Assembly (NCBI GenBank): GCA_946481605.1
Contig: CAMLPA010000121.1
Span: 1-8,685 of the forward strand
Length of the DNA: 8,685 bases
Origin: an uncultured Flavihumibacter sp.
GTDB lineage: Bacteria > Bacteroidota > Bacteroidia > Chitinophagales > Chitinophagaceae
Direction of reading: 5' to 3'
Shown: positions 3,795 to 8,685 of the stretch, piece by piece
Layout of the letters: the number at the start of each line of letters is the position of its first letter
Numbering within the stretch: the stretch's first letter is position 1
The notes under the pieces: model-generated
The model's input: the letters and a program-made list of their open reading frames with translations, nothing else
The model's database searches: none
What the model was told of the DNA's origin: nothing
Position numbers and translations under genes: made by a program

Positions 3795-4958
3795 ATGGAA
3801 TTGATCCAGGTATCGGATAAGGCAACTGAAGCATTGTTTCTGAAGGCTTCGGTGGAAGTGAACAGGAATACCCCTCATTACATACGGCCGCTTGATAAAG
3901 ACATCCGCATGGTGTTTGATCCCGCGCAGAACAAGGCTTTCCGGCAGGGAGAATGCGCGCGGTGGGTATTGAAGGATGCCGAAGGAAAGCTGATTGGCAG
4001 AATCGCGGCTTTTGTCAATAAAAAGTACAGGTCGAAAGGCGATAAAGGTCCGGTGGGCGGAATGGGCTTCTTCGACTGCATTCAGAACCAGGATGCCGCA
4101 GACATGCTTTTCGATGTGGCAAAACACTGGCTGCTCCAACGTGGTATGACCGCCATGGACGGCCCCATCAACTTCGGGGAACGCGACCGCTGGTGGGGAC
4201 TGGTAGTGAAAGGTTTCCAGGAACCACTTTACGGCATGAACTTTAACCCGCCCTATTACCAGGATCTGGTGGAAAATTATGGTTTCAAACCTTTCTTTCA
4301 CCAGGTATGCTTCGGCATGGACGCTAAAAAACCCATGAGCGAAAAACTGCTGAAAAGGCATGCGCGGGTGGCCGCAGATCCCGCTTATTCCGCCAAACAC
4401 ATCCGCAAGGATCAACTGGAAAAGTTCGCGGAAGATTTTACTGAAATATACAACAAGGCCTGGGCAGGACATGGCGGCATGAAAGAACTCCGGAAAGAGC
4501 AGGTGATCGTTATGTTCAAAACCATGAAACCCGTTATGGACGAGCGCATCATCTGGTTCGCTTACCACAACGACAAACCGATTGCGCTGTTCGTGAACCT
4601 GCCCGACCTGAACCAATGGTTCAAACACCTGAACGGGCAGTTTAACCTGCTCGCGAAGCTGAAGTTCCTTTGGGTGAAAGCCACCAAACCCTGCCGTAAA
4701 TTAACGGGTATCGTATTCGGTATTATCCCCGAGTACCAGGCAAAAGGGGTGGACGCCTATATCATCGTGGAAACCGCTAAAGTGGTACAGCCGGAAACCC
4801 CGTATACGGAATATGAAATGCAGTGGATAGGCGATTTCAACCCGAAAATGATCAACGTTGCGGAGAATCTGCCAGACTCCTTCCGGACCCGGGAACTGAT
4901 TACCTACCGGTACAATTTCGACCGGACCCAGCCCTTCGAGCGCCACCCGATCCTCTGA
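3795..4958 (+). CDS. GNAT-like acyltransferase-fold protein of unknown substrate (YghO-like)
   Basis: A 387-residue soluble protein without signal peptide or membrane segments. It appears to have two acetyltransferase-like halves. The first (about 40-178) has a strand LIGRIAAFVN, then GGMGFFDCIQ, a helix DMLFDVAKHWLLQRG, and a conserved-looking block GPINFGERDRWWGLVVKGF and NPPYYQDLVENYGF. The second (about 205-375) has IIWFAYHNDKPIALFVNLPD, then IIPEYQAKGVDAYIIVETAK, where Q-x-x-G-x-x-A resembles the acyl-CoA pyrophosphate-binding loop of GNAT motif A, and YEMQWIGDFNPKMINVAENL, typical of GNAT ends. I recall similar GP-N-F and NPPYY blocks in E. coli YghO-like proteins. The substrate is unknown. 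The start is fixed by the 2-nt gap after the permease stop. Fold assignment is moderately confident; enzymatic activity is inference. Confidence 0.8.
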   Translation: MELIQVSDKATEALFLKASVEVNRNTPHYIRPLDKDIRMVFDPAQNKAFRQGECARWVLKDAEGKLIGRIAAFVNKKYRSKGDKGPVGGMGFFDCIQNQDAADMLFDVAKHWLLQRGMTAMDGPINFGERDRWWGLVVKGFQEPLYGMNFNPPYYQDLVENYGFKPFFHQVCFGMDAKKPMSEKLLKRHARVAADPAYSAKHIRKDQLEKFAEDFTEIYNKAWAGHGGMKELRKEQVIVMFKTMKPVMDERIIWFAYHNDKPIALFVNLPDLNQWFKHLNGQFNLLAKLKFLWVKATKPCRKLTGIVFGIIPEYQAKGVDAYIIVETAKVVQPETPYTEYEMQWIGDFNPKMINVAENLPDSFRTRELITYRYNFDRTQPFERHPIL

Positions 4959-5045: not shown

Positions 5046-6902
5046 ATGGAAAAGTTCATCGTTTCGGCCCGGAAGTACAGACCACAGAATTTCAGCACTG
5101 TTGTGGGGCAACAGCATATTACCACTACCTTAAAGAACGCGATCCGCAACAAACAACTGGCGCATGCCTTTCTGTTCTGTGGCCCGCGGGGGGTGGGGAA
5201 AACCACTTGTGCACGTATCCTGGCCAAGACCATCAACTGTGAACATCCCGGAGAAGATGGGGAAGCCTGCAATACCTGTCACTCCTGCGTGTCCTTCAAC
5301 GATGGGGCTTCGCTGAATATCCATGAACTGGATGCCGCATCCAACAACTCGGTGGACGATATCCGTACACTGGTGGAACAGGTACGCTTCGCGCCGCAGG
5401 CCGGAGAATACAAGGTGTACATCATCGATGAGGTGCACATGCTCAGTTCGTCGGCCTTCAACGCCTTCCTGAAAACCCTGGAAGAACCCCCTCCGTATGC
5501 CATTTTCATCCTGGCCACCACGGAAAAGCATAAGATACTGCCCACGATCCTTTCCCGTTGCCAGATATTCGATTTCAAAAGGATCACCACCCAGGATACC
5601 GCCGACCACCTCAACGAGATATGTGAGAAGGAAACAGTGAAAGCGGAAATGGCCGCCCTGCAACTGATCGCCCAGAAAAGCGAAGGCTGTATGCGCGATG
5701 CCCTGAGCATCATGGACAAGATCGTGAGTTTCACCAACGGGGAACTCAGTTATACGAATACCCTGGAGCACCTCAATATCCTGGATGCGGATTATTATTT
5801 CCGGCTCATGGACGCCATGTTGAAACAGGACGTATCCTCCGCACTCCTGATGTTCGACGAGATCAACCGGAAAGGTTTTGAAGGCGATACCGTGTTGAAC
5901 GGGCTGGCCGAATTCATCCGGAACCTGCTGGTGTGCAAAGACCCGAAAGTGGCGTCCCTGCTGGATGTGGTGGAAAGTTTCAAAGACCGTTATGTAACCA
6001 TGGCGGGGGCAGTTAGCGCATCCCTGCTGGTGAGCGCGCTCAACCTGCTCTCCGATGCGGAAATACAATACCGTGGCGCCAGGAACAAACGCCTGCACAT
6101 AGAACTTACCCTCATCAAACTCTGTTACCTCCAGCAGGCGATAGAAATTTCCGATGGCGGTTCCGGCCTGGATAAAAAAAAAATAACTGACCGGCCGCTG
6201 GCTTTCAGGACTGTTTCGCTGGCACCCGCTCCGGAGAAAAAACCGGCTTCTGGCGCAAAGCTGATTGTGGAAACGAGTTCAGTTGCACCCAAACCTGTTA
6301 CAGGAACAGCAATTCCACCAGTCACCGCACCACCAGCACCGGCACAACCAACGGCTTTCCAAACGGCCTCAAAACCGGCACAGGCAGCAACAACAACTGT
6401 TTCCGCCCAACCTACCGCAGCGCCGCCCCCTCCCCCCAATGGCGGAGGACTGAAACTAGGTTCACTGAGTAAACTCCGGCAGGAAATCGCGGCACGAAAC
6501 AGTGGTCCTTCCGAGAAAAAAGAGCGCATCGCCCTCACGCAAGAACTGCTGAAAGAGCACTGGCAGGGCTTTGCCGATAAATTGAGGGAAGCGAAAAACC
6601 CGGCCGTACAAAGTTTCGAATTATCCGAACTGCGTATACTGGACGACGAAAACTTCGAAGTAGTAACCGGCGACAATATTATGGCCCGCTTTATCGACGC
6701 TGAAAAGCGGGAACTCGCGGAATACCTGCAGGAAAAGTTCTGCAACAACAGACTGCTGTTCACCGTGGTGATCGAACAAAGAGCTGATCTCGGTCTCAAA
6801 TTCGAACGGCCACTCACGCCACGCGAAGTATTTATGCAGATGGCCGAACAATACCCGCTGATCAACGACCTGCGGATAAAACTCCGGCTGGAAGTGGATT
6901 GA
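5046..6902 (+). CDS. dnaX: DNA polymerase III subunit gamma/tau
   Basis: ATPase subunit of the replicative clamp loader: it loads the sliding clamp and, in the tau form, links the loader to polymerase and helicase. The 618 residues start with the typical MEKFIVSARKYRPQNF. Visible motifs are Walker A GPRGVGKT (46-53), a four-cysteine zinc module (C65, C75, C78, C81), Walker B with IIDEVHML (126-133), sensor 1 around ATTEKHK (157-163), the SRC arginine-finger motif (170-172) and the sensor 2 region CMRDALS (215-221). The collar domain runs to about residue 368. A Pro/Ala/Thr-rich linker (about 385-465) leads to the tau-specific C-terminal region (about 466-618). Codons 377-379 lie in a run of ten A residues, a likely slippage site (separate entry). 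ATG 5046 is supported by the conserved N-terminus and a promoter ending 7 nt upstream. Confidence 0.97.
   Translation: MEKFIVSARKYRPQNFSTVVGQQHITTTLKNAIRNKQLAHAFLFCGPRGVGKTTCARILAKTINCEHPGEDGEACNTCHSCVSFNDGASLNIHELDAASNNSVDDIRTLVEQVRFAPQAGEYKVYIIDEVHMLSSSAFNAFLKTLEEPPPYAIFILATTEKHKILPTILSRCQIFDFKRITTQDTADHLNEICEKETVKAEMAALQLIAQKSEGCMRDALSIMDKIVSFTNGELSYTNTLEHLNILDADYYFRLMDAMLKQDVSSALLMFDEINRKGFEGDTVLNGLAEFIRNLLVCKDPKVASLLDVVESFKDRYVTMAGAVSASLLVSALNLLSDAEIQYRGARNKRLHIELTLIKLCYLQQAIEISDGGSGLDKKKITDRPLAFRTVSLAPAPEKKPASGAKLIVETSSVAPKPVTGTAIPPVTAPPAPAQPTAFQTASKPAQAATTTVSAQPTAAPPPPPNGGGLKLGSLSKLRQEIAARNSGPSEKKERIALTQELLKEHWQGFADKLREAKNPAVQSFELSELRILDDENFEVVTGDNIMARFIDAEKRELAEYLQEKFCNNRLLFTVVIEQRADLGLKFERPLTPREVFMQMAEQYPLINDLRIKLRLEVD
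6174..6183 (+). promoter_or_regulatory. A10 slippage site in dnaX, predicted to yield a gamma-like short product
   Basis: Ten consecutive A residues encode K377-K378-K379 and the first base of I380. Losing one A gives TAA directly after K379 (bases 6184-6186), a 379-residue product. Gaining one A, or a -1 ribosomal shift, gives Asn-Asn then TGA (6188-6190), a 381-residue product. Either keeps the ATPase and collar domains and removes the linker and tau domain. Thermus thermophilus dnaX is known to make gamma by transcriptional slippage on an A9 run, and E. coli dnaX uses ribosomal frameshifting. No Shine-Dalgarno-like stimulator is visible upstream, which favours transcriptional slippage here. 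The function is inferred, not shown. Confidence 0.6.
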
Positions 6903-7123: not shown

Positions 7124-7211
7124 CCTGTAATTTCGGCCTTCCATTAAGCAAATGGGCACCGGGAACCCGGGAAACACACGCAATCGAACAACTAAAAACG
7201 ATTATCTTTTT

Positions 7212-8685
7212 ATGGCTGAAGTGATACTCATGCCCCGCCTGAGCGATACCATGACCGAAGGTGTGATAGCCGCCTGGCACAAAAAAGTGGGTGATACCGT
7301 TAAGAAAGGAGATTTACTGGCTGAAGTTGAAACCGATAAGGCCACCATGGAACTGGAAAGCTACCAGGACGGTACGCTCCTGTACGTGGGTGCCCAGAAT
7401 GGAGAAAAAGTGGACGTGAACGCATTGCTGGCCATCCTCGGAAAACCAGGAGAAAATGTGGATGATCTCGTGAAGCAAAACGGTGGACAAGCCGCTCCTG
7501 CAGCCGAAAATAAAACCGAAGCACCAAAAGAAGAAGCGCCAAAAGCTGACGCGCCCAAAGAAGCACCTAAGGCTGAAAAACCTGCTGCTTCCGGTATGGA
7601 CCTGTCCACTGTGGAAGAAGCCATCCTGATGCCCCGCCTCAGCGATACCATGACCGAAGGCGTAATCGCAGCATGGCATAAAAAAGTAGGCGACTCCGTT
7701 AAAAAAGGTGAATTACTCGCTGAAGTGGAAACCGATAAAGCCACCATGGAACTGGAGAGCTACAAAGATGGCACCCTCCTGTACATCGGCGCTGAAAAAG
7801 GCGACAAAGTTCCCGTTAACGCCCTGCTCTGCATCATCGGAAGCGATAAAACAAATGTTGACGCCATTGTAGCCGCCGCAAAAGGTGGTGGCATTGAAGC
7901 AAAAGGAGAAGGTGACGTAAAAGGCGCCGCAGGCACACCCGCTTCTTCCGTGGAAAGTAAAAAAGAAGAAGCCAATAAGGAAAGTGATACCACTTCTGAA
8001 AATGTTTCCAGTGATGGAAGGATTAAAGCATCCCCCCTCGCCAAAAAGATCGCCGCTGAAAAAGGCATCGATATCACCAAAGTAACAGGAACAGGAGACA
8101 ACGGCCGCATTGTTAAATCCGACGTTGACAACTATGTTCCCGCCGCTGAAAAAAGCGCTTCCGCTCCGGCTGCAAAAACAACCGCCGCTCCCGCAGTATA
8201 TGGCCAGGAAAGCTTCGATGAGAAGCCTGTTTCGCAAATGCGCAAAGTAATTGCCAAGCGCCTCAGCGAAAGCCTGTTCACCGCACCGCATTTCTACGTA
8301 ACAATGTCTATTGATATGGACAAAGCCGTGGAAAGTCGGGCCAAAATGAACGAAACCGCTCCCGTAAAAATATCTTTCAACGATATGGTGCTGAAAGCCG
8401 TTGCGCTTTCACTGAAGCAACACCCTGCTGTGAACAGCAGTTGGCTGGGTGACAAGATCCGCACCAACCACCACGTAAACATCGGCGTTGCTGTTGCAGT
8501 GGACGAAGGCCTGCTGGTGCCCGTGGTTCGTTTCGCCGATACCAAATCCCTCAGCCAGATCGGTGCTGAAGTGAAGGATTACGCCAAACGCGCCAAAGAC
8601 AAGAAGTTGCAACCTGCCGATTGGGAAGGTTCCACCTTCACGATCTCTAACCTTGGCATGTTCGGTGTGGACGAATTCACCGCCA
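7212..8685 (+). CDS. Pyruvate dehydrogenase complex E2, dihydrolipoamide acetyltransferase (3' end outside window)
   Basis: E2 core subunit of the pyruvate dehydrogenase complex: it carries acetyl groups on lipoyl-lysine and transfers them to CoA. The 491 visible residues run off the right edge. Two lipoyl domains lie at about 3-80 and 136-212, with ETDKATMELES in each placing the lipoyl-lysines at K43 and K176. An Ala/Pro/Lys/Glu-rich linker (about 90-130) joins them, and a second polar linker (about 223-268) leads to the peripheral subunit-binding domain (about 270-308, with SPLAKKIAAEKGI and GTGDNGRIVKSDV). The catalytic domain begins near 335 (PVSQMRKVIAKRLSES); its active-site HxxxDG motif would lie beyond the window. 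Two lipoyl domains and the MPRLSDTMTEG signature favour the pyruvate complex over 2-oxoglutarate E2. ATG 7212 follows an A-rich leader and starts directly with the lipoyl fold. No E1 gene lies upstream. Confidence 0.96.
   Translation, partial: MAEVILMPRLSDTMTEGVIAAWHKKVGDTVKKGDLLAEVETDKATMELESYQDGTLLYVGAQNGEKVDVNALLAILGKPGENVDDLVKQNGGQAAPAAENKTEAPKEEAPKADAPKEAPKAEKPAASGMDLSTVEEAILMPRLSDTMTEGVIAAWHKKVGDSVKKGELLAEVETDKATMELESYKDGTLLYIGAEKGDKVPVNALLCIIGSDKTNVDAIVAAAKGGGIEAKGEGDVKGAAGTPASSVESKKEEANKESDTTSENVSSDGRIKASPLAKKIAAEKGIDITKVTGTGDNGRIVKSDVDNYVPAAEKSASAPAAKTTAAPAVYGQESFDEKPVSQMRKVIAKRLSESLFTAPHFYVTMSIDMDKAVESRAKMNETAPVKISFNDMVLKAVALSLKQHPAVNSSWLGDKIRTNHHVNIGVAVAVDEGLLVPVVRFADTKSLSQIGAEVKDYAKRAKDKKLQPADWEGSTFTISNLGMFGVDEFTA
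7224..7394 (+). repeat. First copy of near-identical lipoyl-domain repeat in E2
   Basis: Residues 5-61 of E2 match residues 138-194 at 53 of 57 positions (differences T/S, D/E, Q/K, V/I). The DNA copies differ at 23 of the 53 codons for identical residues, so the match is at protein level. The copies are 399 nt apart, exactly 133 codons. Confidence 0.9.
7623..7793 (+). repeat. Second copy of the lipoyl-domain repeat in E2
   Basis: Partner of the copy at 7224-7394, covering E2 residues 138-194 with the second lipoyl-lysine, K176. After residue 194 the two domains diverge quickly (QNGEKVDVNALLAILG against EKGDKVPVNALLCIIG), and the linkers that follow are unrelated. Confidence 0.9.

Follow-up and report, generated by a model that had tools for sequence, protein, structure and literature searches.

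The window, by which we mean the whole stretch of DNA analysed (8,685 bases from an uncultured Flavihumibacter sp.), carries a dnaX gene in which the clamp-loader core and the tau tail of DNA polymerase III lie in a single open frame. The encoded protein matches the NCBIfam model NF011531 (PRK14971) with 730.8 bits against a cut-off of 685, and Pfam identifies the clamp-loader domains PF13177, PF22608 and PF12169, the last of which ends at residue 364. Between an AI-2E-type transporter and dnaX sits a 387-aa protein (3795-4958) that neither Pfam nor NCBIfam matches at E 0.001. An open frame at 7152-8684 leaves the end of the window, and its N-terminal part contains two very similar lipoyl-type repeats, which we take to resemble pyruvate dehydrogenase E2. 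The features of dnaX that concern us here, all on the forward strand, are the following.

5046..6902, forward: dnaX, DNA polymerase III tau, full length 618 aa, single open frame (NCBIfam NF011531 (PRK14971), Pfam)
5046..6183, forward: predicted gamma-coding part, comprising ATPase, lid and collar (domains I-III) and a short lead into the run (Pfam, alignment to 1jr3_A)
6164..6168, forward: CGGCC, upstream arm of a proposed hairpin, not supported as a feature
6174..6183, forward: A10 slippery run, starting at codon 377 in phase 0 (direct reading)
6184..6186, forward: TAA, the first codon behind the run if one A is lost (or two are gained) (direct reading)
6184..6902, forward: linker and C-terminal part found in tau only, translated if the run preserves the frame (direct reading)
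6188..6190, forward: TGA, two codons behind the run after gain of one A or a -1 slip of the ribosome (direct reading)
6193..6197, forward: GGCCG, the downstream arm of this hairpin, likewise without support as a feature

The sense strand of dnaX thus holds a run of at least nine A's past the collar domain, and this run is the sole A or T run of eight or more within the 8,685-base window. In the zero frame the site reads GAT AAA AAA AAA ATA ACT GAC CGG, and the out-of-frame stops lie 0 nt (TAA) and 4 nt (TGA) from the end of the run. With nine A's, TAA would stand right behind three lysine codons and end a product of 379 aa, while eleven A's would place AAT AAC TGA behind the run and end one of 381 aa. 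Direct reading thereby bears out the preliminary description, which had reported ten A's at 6174-6183, a TAA on loss of an A and a TGA on gain of one, and the two short product lengths that it predicted follow from the sequence. In an alignment to the E. coli gamma chain 1jr3_A (373 residues), residue 359 of the window protein corresponds to residue 356, so that a product ending at the run would approximate the crystallised E. coli core.

A pairing of CGGCC with GGCCG around the run had also been proposed. The downstream arm was correctly placed at 6193-6197, but the upstream arm, given as 6166-6170, actually lies at 6164-6168, and the pairing itself does not hold up. It is absent from the predicted fold of window positions 6150-6240, which is not notable in any case (z -0.13). 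Stems that enclose the run do not exceed the random-site background either: those of 5 bp occur in 41 of 193 genes of the sample described below, as compared to a random-site mean of 51.8. The hairpin was therefore dropped. Nor is a downstream stem-loop supported, whether in the window, where the 60 nt behind the run give a z of 0.19, or in the 65 of 193 relatives that were folded over the same length (mean z -0.13; four below -2). The heptamer A_AAA_AAG is absent from the window, where the ten A's are followed by T and A_AAA_AAA is the sole possible heptamer. Shine-Dalgarno-like tetramers (GGAG, AGGA, GAGG or GGGG) are likewise absent from the stretch 18 to 4 bases before the window run; in the sample as a whole they occur just upstream of the run in 41 of 193 genes, versus 12 of 193 when the position is shifted by 6 nt, and at 9% of core sites.

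Related dnaX loci, numbered here with the prefix L, came from three sources. A contig search supplied the best 80 of at least 594 matches. The GTDB family of Longitalea luteola supplied 79 genomes, 76 of which matched; G046, whose match breaks off at residue 316, was left out, giving 75 family genomes with a readable site. Finally, 292 of 296 genomes of the phylum matched, and from these we used 30 loci, several of them also in the family set, and 58 regions chosen by rank, with ten distant ones added; about 200 lower-ranked matches were left out, and the sample leans to the better matches. The 235 records, window included, yielded 231 dnaX genes after removal of L232 and L233, which could not be placed, and of the duplicates L089 and L098. 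The site was defined as 15-50 codons past an anchor at window residue 346. The nearest relative found, L083, belongs to the GTDB family of Longitalea luteola and shares 94% amino acid identity with the window protein.

At this site, just past the collar domain, 193 of the 231 non-duplicate genes, all from the same phylum and the window among them, carry at least nine A's (A9 in 54, A10 in 125, A11 in 10, A12 in three and A13 in one). Named species among the relatives include Chitinophaga terrae (L004, A10) and Terrimonas ferruginea (L002, A9). The remaining 38 have A7 (three), A8 (one) or no run of seven or more at the site (34), so that 193 of the 197 site runs of at least seven A's reach nine. 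Outside the site, a scan of 396,420 bases of these genes shows just two runs of nine or more (L030 and L060), and A10 has 7-17 overlapping matches per genome in four related genomes of 4.7-7.3 Mb. The run starts in phases 0, 1 and 2 in 51, 73 and 69 of the 193 genes, and those with at least nine A's make up 51/52, 73/74 and 69/71 of the site runs of seven or more in the respective phases. Judged from these counts, the run at the dnaX site is more than a product of chance. Loss of the run in close relatives, which the preliminary description had named as evidence that would speak against a switch, is mostly absent: at least nine A's are kept in 70 of the 75 readable genomes of the Longitalea luteola family, the five exceptions being L093 (A7), L101 (A8), L094 (A6), and L162 and L176 (none). 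The window and L083 differ at 223 of 1,857 dnaX bases, none of which falls between 4 bases 5' of the run and 28 bases after its first base, a segment that includes both stops. The run is also missing from genes of Bacteroidaceae, from some of those of other Bacteroidales and from the majority of the distant genes: of the ten that were added, L234 has A10, seven have fewer than nine A's, and the site could not be located in two.

The tau frame is intact in 139 of the 193 genes with nine or more A's, the window among them; one of these genes, L130, is intact, yet also has 258 nt open in another frame. In the intact genes, the first stop in the -1 frame lies within 20 nt in 138 of 139 and that in the +1 frame within 20 nt in 114 of 139, as compared to 40-45% (-1) and 35-39% (+1) at other codons of the same genes. 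When the codons behind the run were redrawn synonymously, the stops averaged 66.7 (maximum 80) and 62.2 (maximum 79) of 139, respectively; only the stop counts of this redraw were used, the 139/139 with at least nine A's being true by selection. The excess persists when a single gene is taken per cluster. At 80% identity, intact genes have close -1 stops in 50/50 and close +1 stops in 41/50, the maxima in 2,000 draws of random core sites being 33 and 31. At 70% identity, the counts are 21/21 (random core sites: mean 7.9, maximum 15) and 16/21 (mean 7.1, maximum 14).

In the other 54 of the 193 genes, to which the window does not belong, the zero frame ends at the run, so that tau could be made only by crossing it. 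The tau tail can be seen in another frame in 52 of these split genes, in the -1 frame in 50, where it is open for at least 450 nt, and in the +1 frame in two (L178 and L196); the records of L055 and L058 stop with the -1 frame still open, after 51 and 195 nt. In all 52 genes with an open -1 frame, the gamma frame terminates within 20 nt (50/50 without L055 and L058), and the third frame, which would encode neither product, is closed within 20 nt in 43/52 (41/50 without these two short records), as compared to about 42% in the control. With one gene per 80% cluster the third frame is closed in 17/21, above the random core-site maximum of 15 in 2,000 draws, whereas at 70% identity it is closed in just 8/11 (random mean 4.4, maximum 10).

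On a FastTree phylogeny of the core, parsimony requires at least 19 changes between intact and split and 41 changes of phase, numbers that tree error or gene transfer could inflate. The intact L206 reads KNTKHYIIPPSYFKD in frame and the split L205 reads KKAKSFIIPPTYFRN in the -1 frame; the context of the run is nearly the same in both, and the two linker peptides are similar. L196, which is split with tau in +1, has its A10 directly 5' of TAG; by comparison with L203 and L206, its site resembles that of a relative with one base added before the run, which may be a sequencing error, and assembly error is possible in either of the two genes with +1-direction tails. The Bacteroidaceae-like L276 has A11, with a zero frame that ends soon after it and 720 nt open in the -1 frame.

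We propose, with a probability of roughly 0.78, that the A10 run is a programmed transcriptional-slippage site through which one dnaX gene would make both tau and gamma. RNA polymerase would slip on the run and produce mRNAs with 9, 10, 11 or more A's. Those with 10 A's (or 10 ± 3) would be translated into the 618-aa tau or nearly so, while mRNAs of other lengths would lead to termination at the TAA or TGA behind the run, and thus to a gamma of 379 or 381 aa that would retain the ATPase, lid and collar domains and lack the tau tail. We infer the polymerase as the layer that slips, the accumulation of gamma and the ratio of tau to gamma from features that are read directly, namely the run, its stops, their conservation and the split relatives. 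A gamma/tau switch with polymerase slippage as its likeliest cause, as first suggested for this locus, is thus supported by a run kept in 193 of 231 genes and in all phases, with stops close by in both frames and with the 54 split relatives.

Ribosomal -1 frameshifting on A_AAA_AAA within the run, as in E. coli, would also yield a gamma, ending at the TGA at 6188-6190, and is in our estimate unlikely. It would account for the -1-frame stop being the one kept most tightly (138/139 within 20 nt), and -1 is the frame of 50 of the 52 tails located outside the zero frame, as expected from a ribosomal -1 shift and from insertion of one A alike. According to the relevant section of Antonov 2013 (PMC3711429), recoding in a single direction points to the ribosome. 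The enrichment of Shine-Dalgarno-like tetramers upstream of the run in relatives fits the ribosome as well; the Shine-Dalgarno sequence is described as a stimulator of E. coli dnaX frameshifting (PMC5009743, in part). Also to be set against slippage are the third-frame count in the 70% clusters of split genes, the 38 of 231 genes with fewer than nine A's, and the distant genes, among whose eight placeable members just one reaches nine. A ribosomal -1 shift alone, however, would require just seven A's in a single phase, and stops in the +1 frame would make no difference to it. The runs instead have nine to ten or more A's whatever their phase, and stops close the +1 or third frame nearby as well, in excess of the control; stops close in both alternative frames, far above the controls, favor slippage by the polymerase. 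Moreover, downstream structure is not notable, the window has no Shine-Dalgarno-like tetramer upstream, and L178 and L196 would run in the +1 direction, if neither is an assembly error. The ribosomes of Bacteroidia, finally, fail to recognise Shine-Dalgarno sequences, as stated in the portion of PMC9976891 cited here.

Much less probable is that the run reflects lysine coding or chance alone and has no product of its own. AAA is the commoner lysine codon in the core of these genes (68%), which makes A runs easy to form in lysine-rich linkers, and 38 of 231 genes do without nine A's at the site. Even so, 193 of 231 genes having such runs at one place, in all three phases and with clustered stops, when just two others occur in the 396,420 bases, as well as tau tails in another frame in 52 genes, are hard to explain in this manner, and we reject lysine coding alone on the phase, length and stop data. 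A DNA-level contingency locus, in which replication slippage would produce phase variation and the run would not be a decoding signal, is the least probable alternative of all, for while A10 is expected to be mutable in DNA too and run lengths and frames do vary among relatives, split is the assembled state in 54 of 231 genes, the stops in the other frames are kept, and tau is a replication protein expected to be necessary in every cell. The same DNA-level reservation has been made for A and T runs in general (PMC1088944, in part).

The transcriptional slippage proposed for the dnaX run has a known precedent in Thermus thermophilus, whose dnaX contains A9 (PMC1088944 and PMC5009743, relevant passages). 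As in that gene, tau occupies one open frame in the window, a long A run follows the core, close stops are found in both other frames, and a short and a long product are expected from a single gene. In contrast to Thermus, the window run is A10 rather than A9 and lies approximately 61% through the gene instead of seven-eighths, and its slippage is predicted from sequence. The parts of Antonov 2013 used here (PMC3711429) describe 17 split dnaX genes (fs-genes) from 12 genera, 12 of them with poly-A and nine with ten A's, and three named Chlorobi split dnaX genes with 9, 8 and 7 A's. These share with our locus a long A run at the gamma/tau boundary together with recoding, and the split relatives in our sample belong to the same class; they differ from the window, where tau is in frame, in having gamma in frame and tau dependent on recoding. 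The E. coli gene, as covered in sections of PMC5009743, PMC3711429 and PMC3290774, uses a ribosomal -1 frameshift on A_AAA_AAG aided by a Shine-Dalgarno sequence and a stem-loop. It resembles the window in that tau is in frame and a short gamma of domains I-III arises via a frame change, which in the window is a prediction. Unlike E. coli dnaX, the window lacks AAG at the end of the heptamer, a Shine-Dalgarno-like tetramer upstream and a supported stem downstream, and has both alternative frames closed. In Caulobacter crescentus, gamma is generated by proteolysis of tau (PMC5009743, in part), which has the same two-product outcome, but at the protein level and with no nucleotide signal. The proposed switch in the window is therefore of a kind already known from Thermus dnaX and Antonov 2013, and its extent in Bacteroidota adds to the picture. 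Within the open-licence PMC literature, as far as the portions consulted extend, we found no report of dnaX slippage signatures across Bacteroidota or of UAG readthrough in dnaX, and neither the breadth in Bacteroidota nor the repeated interchange of intact and split genes was found in print.

Other elements occupy the site in some relatives. L255, L257, L258 and L262 have T9 instead of the A run, with tau in frame and stops in the other frames at 14 nt (+1) and 9 nt (-1). The Bacteroidaceae-like dnaX genes (L267-L296) are mostly without an A run; a short inverted repeat resembling GGGC-loop-GCCC, defined by a loose pattern, is present in 25 of these 30 loci, mostly encoding GRSP-like residues some way before LKPIF-like ones. 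Close out-of-frame stops show no consistent pattern at this repeat in the Bacteroidaceae relatives.

A distinct element is found in one Bacteroidales family (L049, L050, L059, L238, L239, L241, L247 and L298-L384; in L050 the TAG is at approximately 3599 on the locus). Where the A run would be, these genes have an in-frame TAG followed by AT(T/A) GCA AG(A/G) and mostly by a short hairpin, and tau continues in the same frame. We searched 190 genomes of the GTDB family of L050, of which 116 match the L050 DnaX core at E <= 1e-165 and 74 fall below this bar; the open frame is short (367-438 aa) in 107 of the 116 and long in nine. Of these 107, 94 loci were read, chosen partly for their short frame, and the early stop is TAG in all 94; eight long ones were also read. 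Behind the TAG, the encoded residues are Ile in 91/91, Ala in 91/91 and Arg in 90/91, and their codons vary synonymously (ATT/ATA, GCA/GCT/GCC/GCG, AGA/AGG). Ten such genomes contain 13 occurrences of the pattern TAGATWGCWAGR, of which 10 lie beside the dnaX match by coordinates, versus six occurrences for the reversed control pattern. In L352, L355 and L383, the peptide G(I/L)ARSPQAEH does not follow an in-frame TAG but lies in the +1 frame, which is open for 199-216 codons. Among the other family members sampled, some carry A runs or T9 farther along and some lack any such element.

RNAalifold found no consensus structure on a MAFFT alignment of 90 UAG elements, which speaks against a stem conserved as aligned. 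This alignment gaps the variable loops, and stems were therefore also counted in each sequence separately, with shuffled sequences as the control. Behind the TAG, 85/91 have a stem of 3 bp or more that includes three or more G-C pairs, as compared to a shuffled mean of 14.1 (maximum 24) and to 12% of the remaining tail windows. Five UAG-type loci searched against Rfam returned eight matches at E<=1, all under the gathering score. In the 89 loci not cut by the end of the record, the frame behind the TAG is open for 167-260 codons (median 209). Across 171 close pairs, differences in the tail distribute over codon positions as 10512/8164/17912, with 8,974 synonymous and 13,674 nonsynonymous codon changes, which indicates that the tail is coding but fast-evolving. 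TAG seems also to be an ordinary stop in UAG-type loci: across 34 such loci, frames of 200 aa or longer terminate at 47 TAG, 23 TGA and 12 TAA codons, counts that include the dnaX core ends and possibly spurious frames. The simplest reading of the TAG element is that it is a candidate for programmed UAG readthrough; a separately started tail protein behind the TAG is possible.

Taken together, we lean towards one joint reading, in which a dual gamma/tau output would be selected across Bacteroidota at a fixed position in the protein while the decoding layer that achieves it turns over. Most of the sampled lineages would use polymerase slippage on A9-A13, with the tau frame flipping repeatedly between in-frame and split, and four relatives have T9 in place of the A run. 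In the one Bacteroidales family with an in-frame UAG, a conserved AUW GCA AGR and a small hairpin, gamma would arise by termination and tau by programmed stop-codon readthrough. A 2012 review (PMC3290774), in the section cited, holds that most bacteria besides enterobacteria and Thermus keep no dnaX frameshift signatures and may not make gamma; by contrast, the signature is kept in 193 of 231 genes of our sample, which leans to good matches to the window. If this is true at the RNA level, the disputed need for gamma would become testable in Bacteroidota, which would offer many natural replicates of one slippage site, with tau in or out of frame depending on the species.
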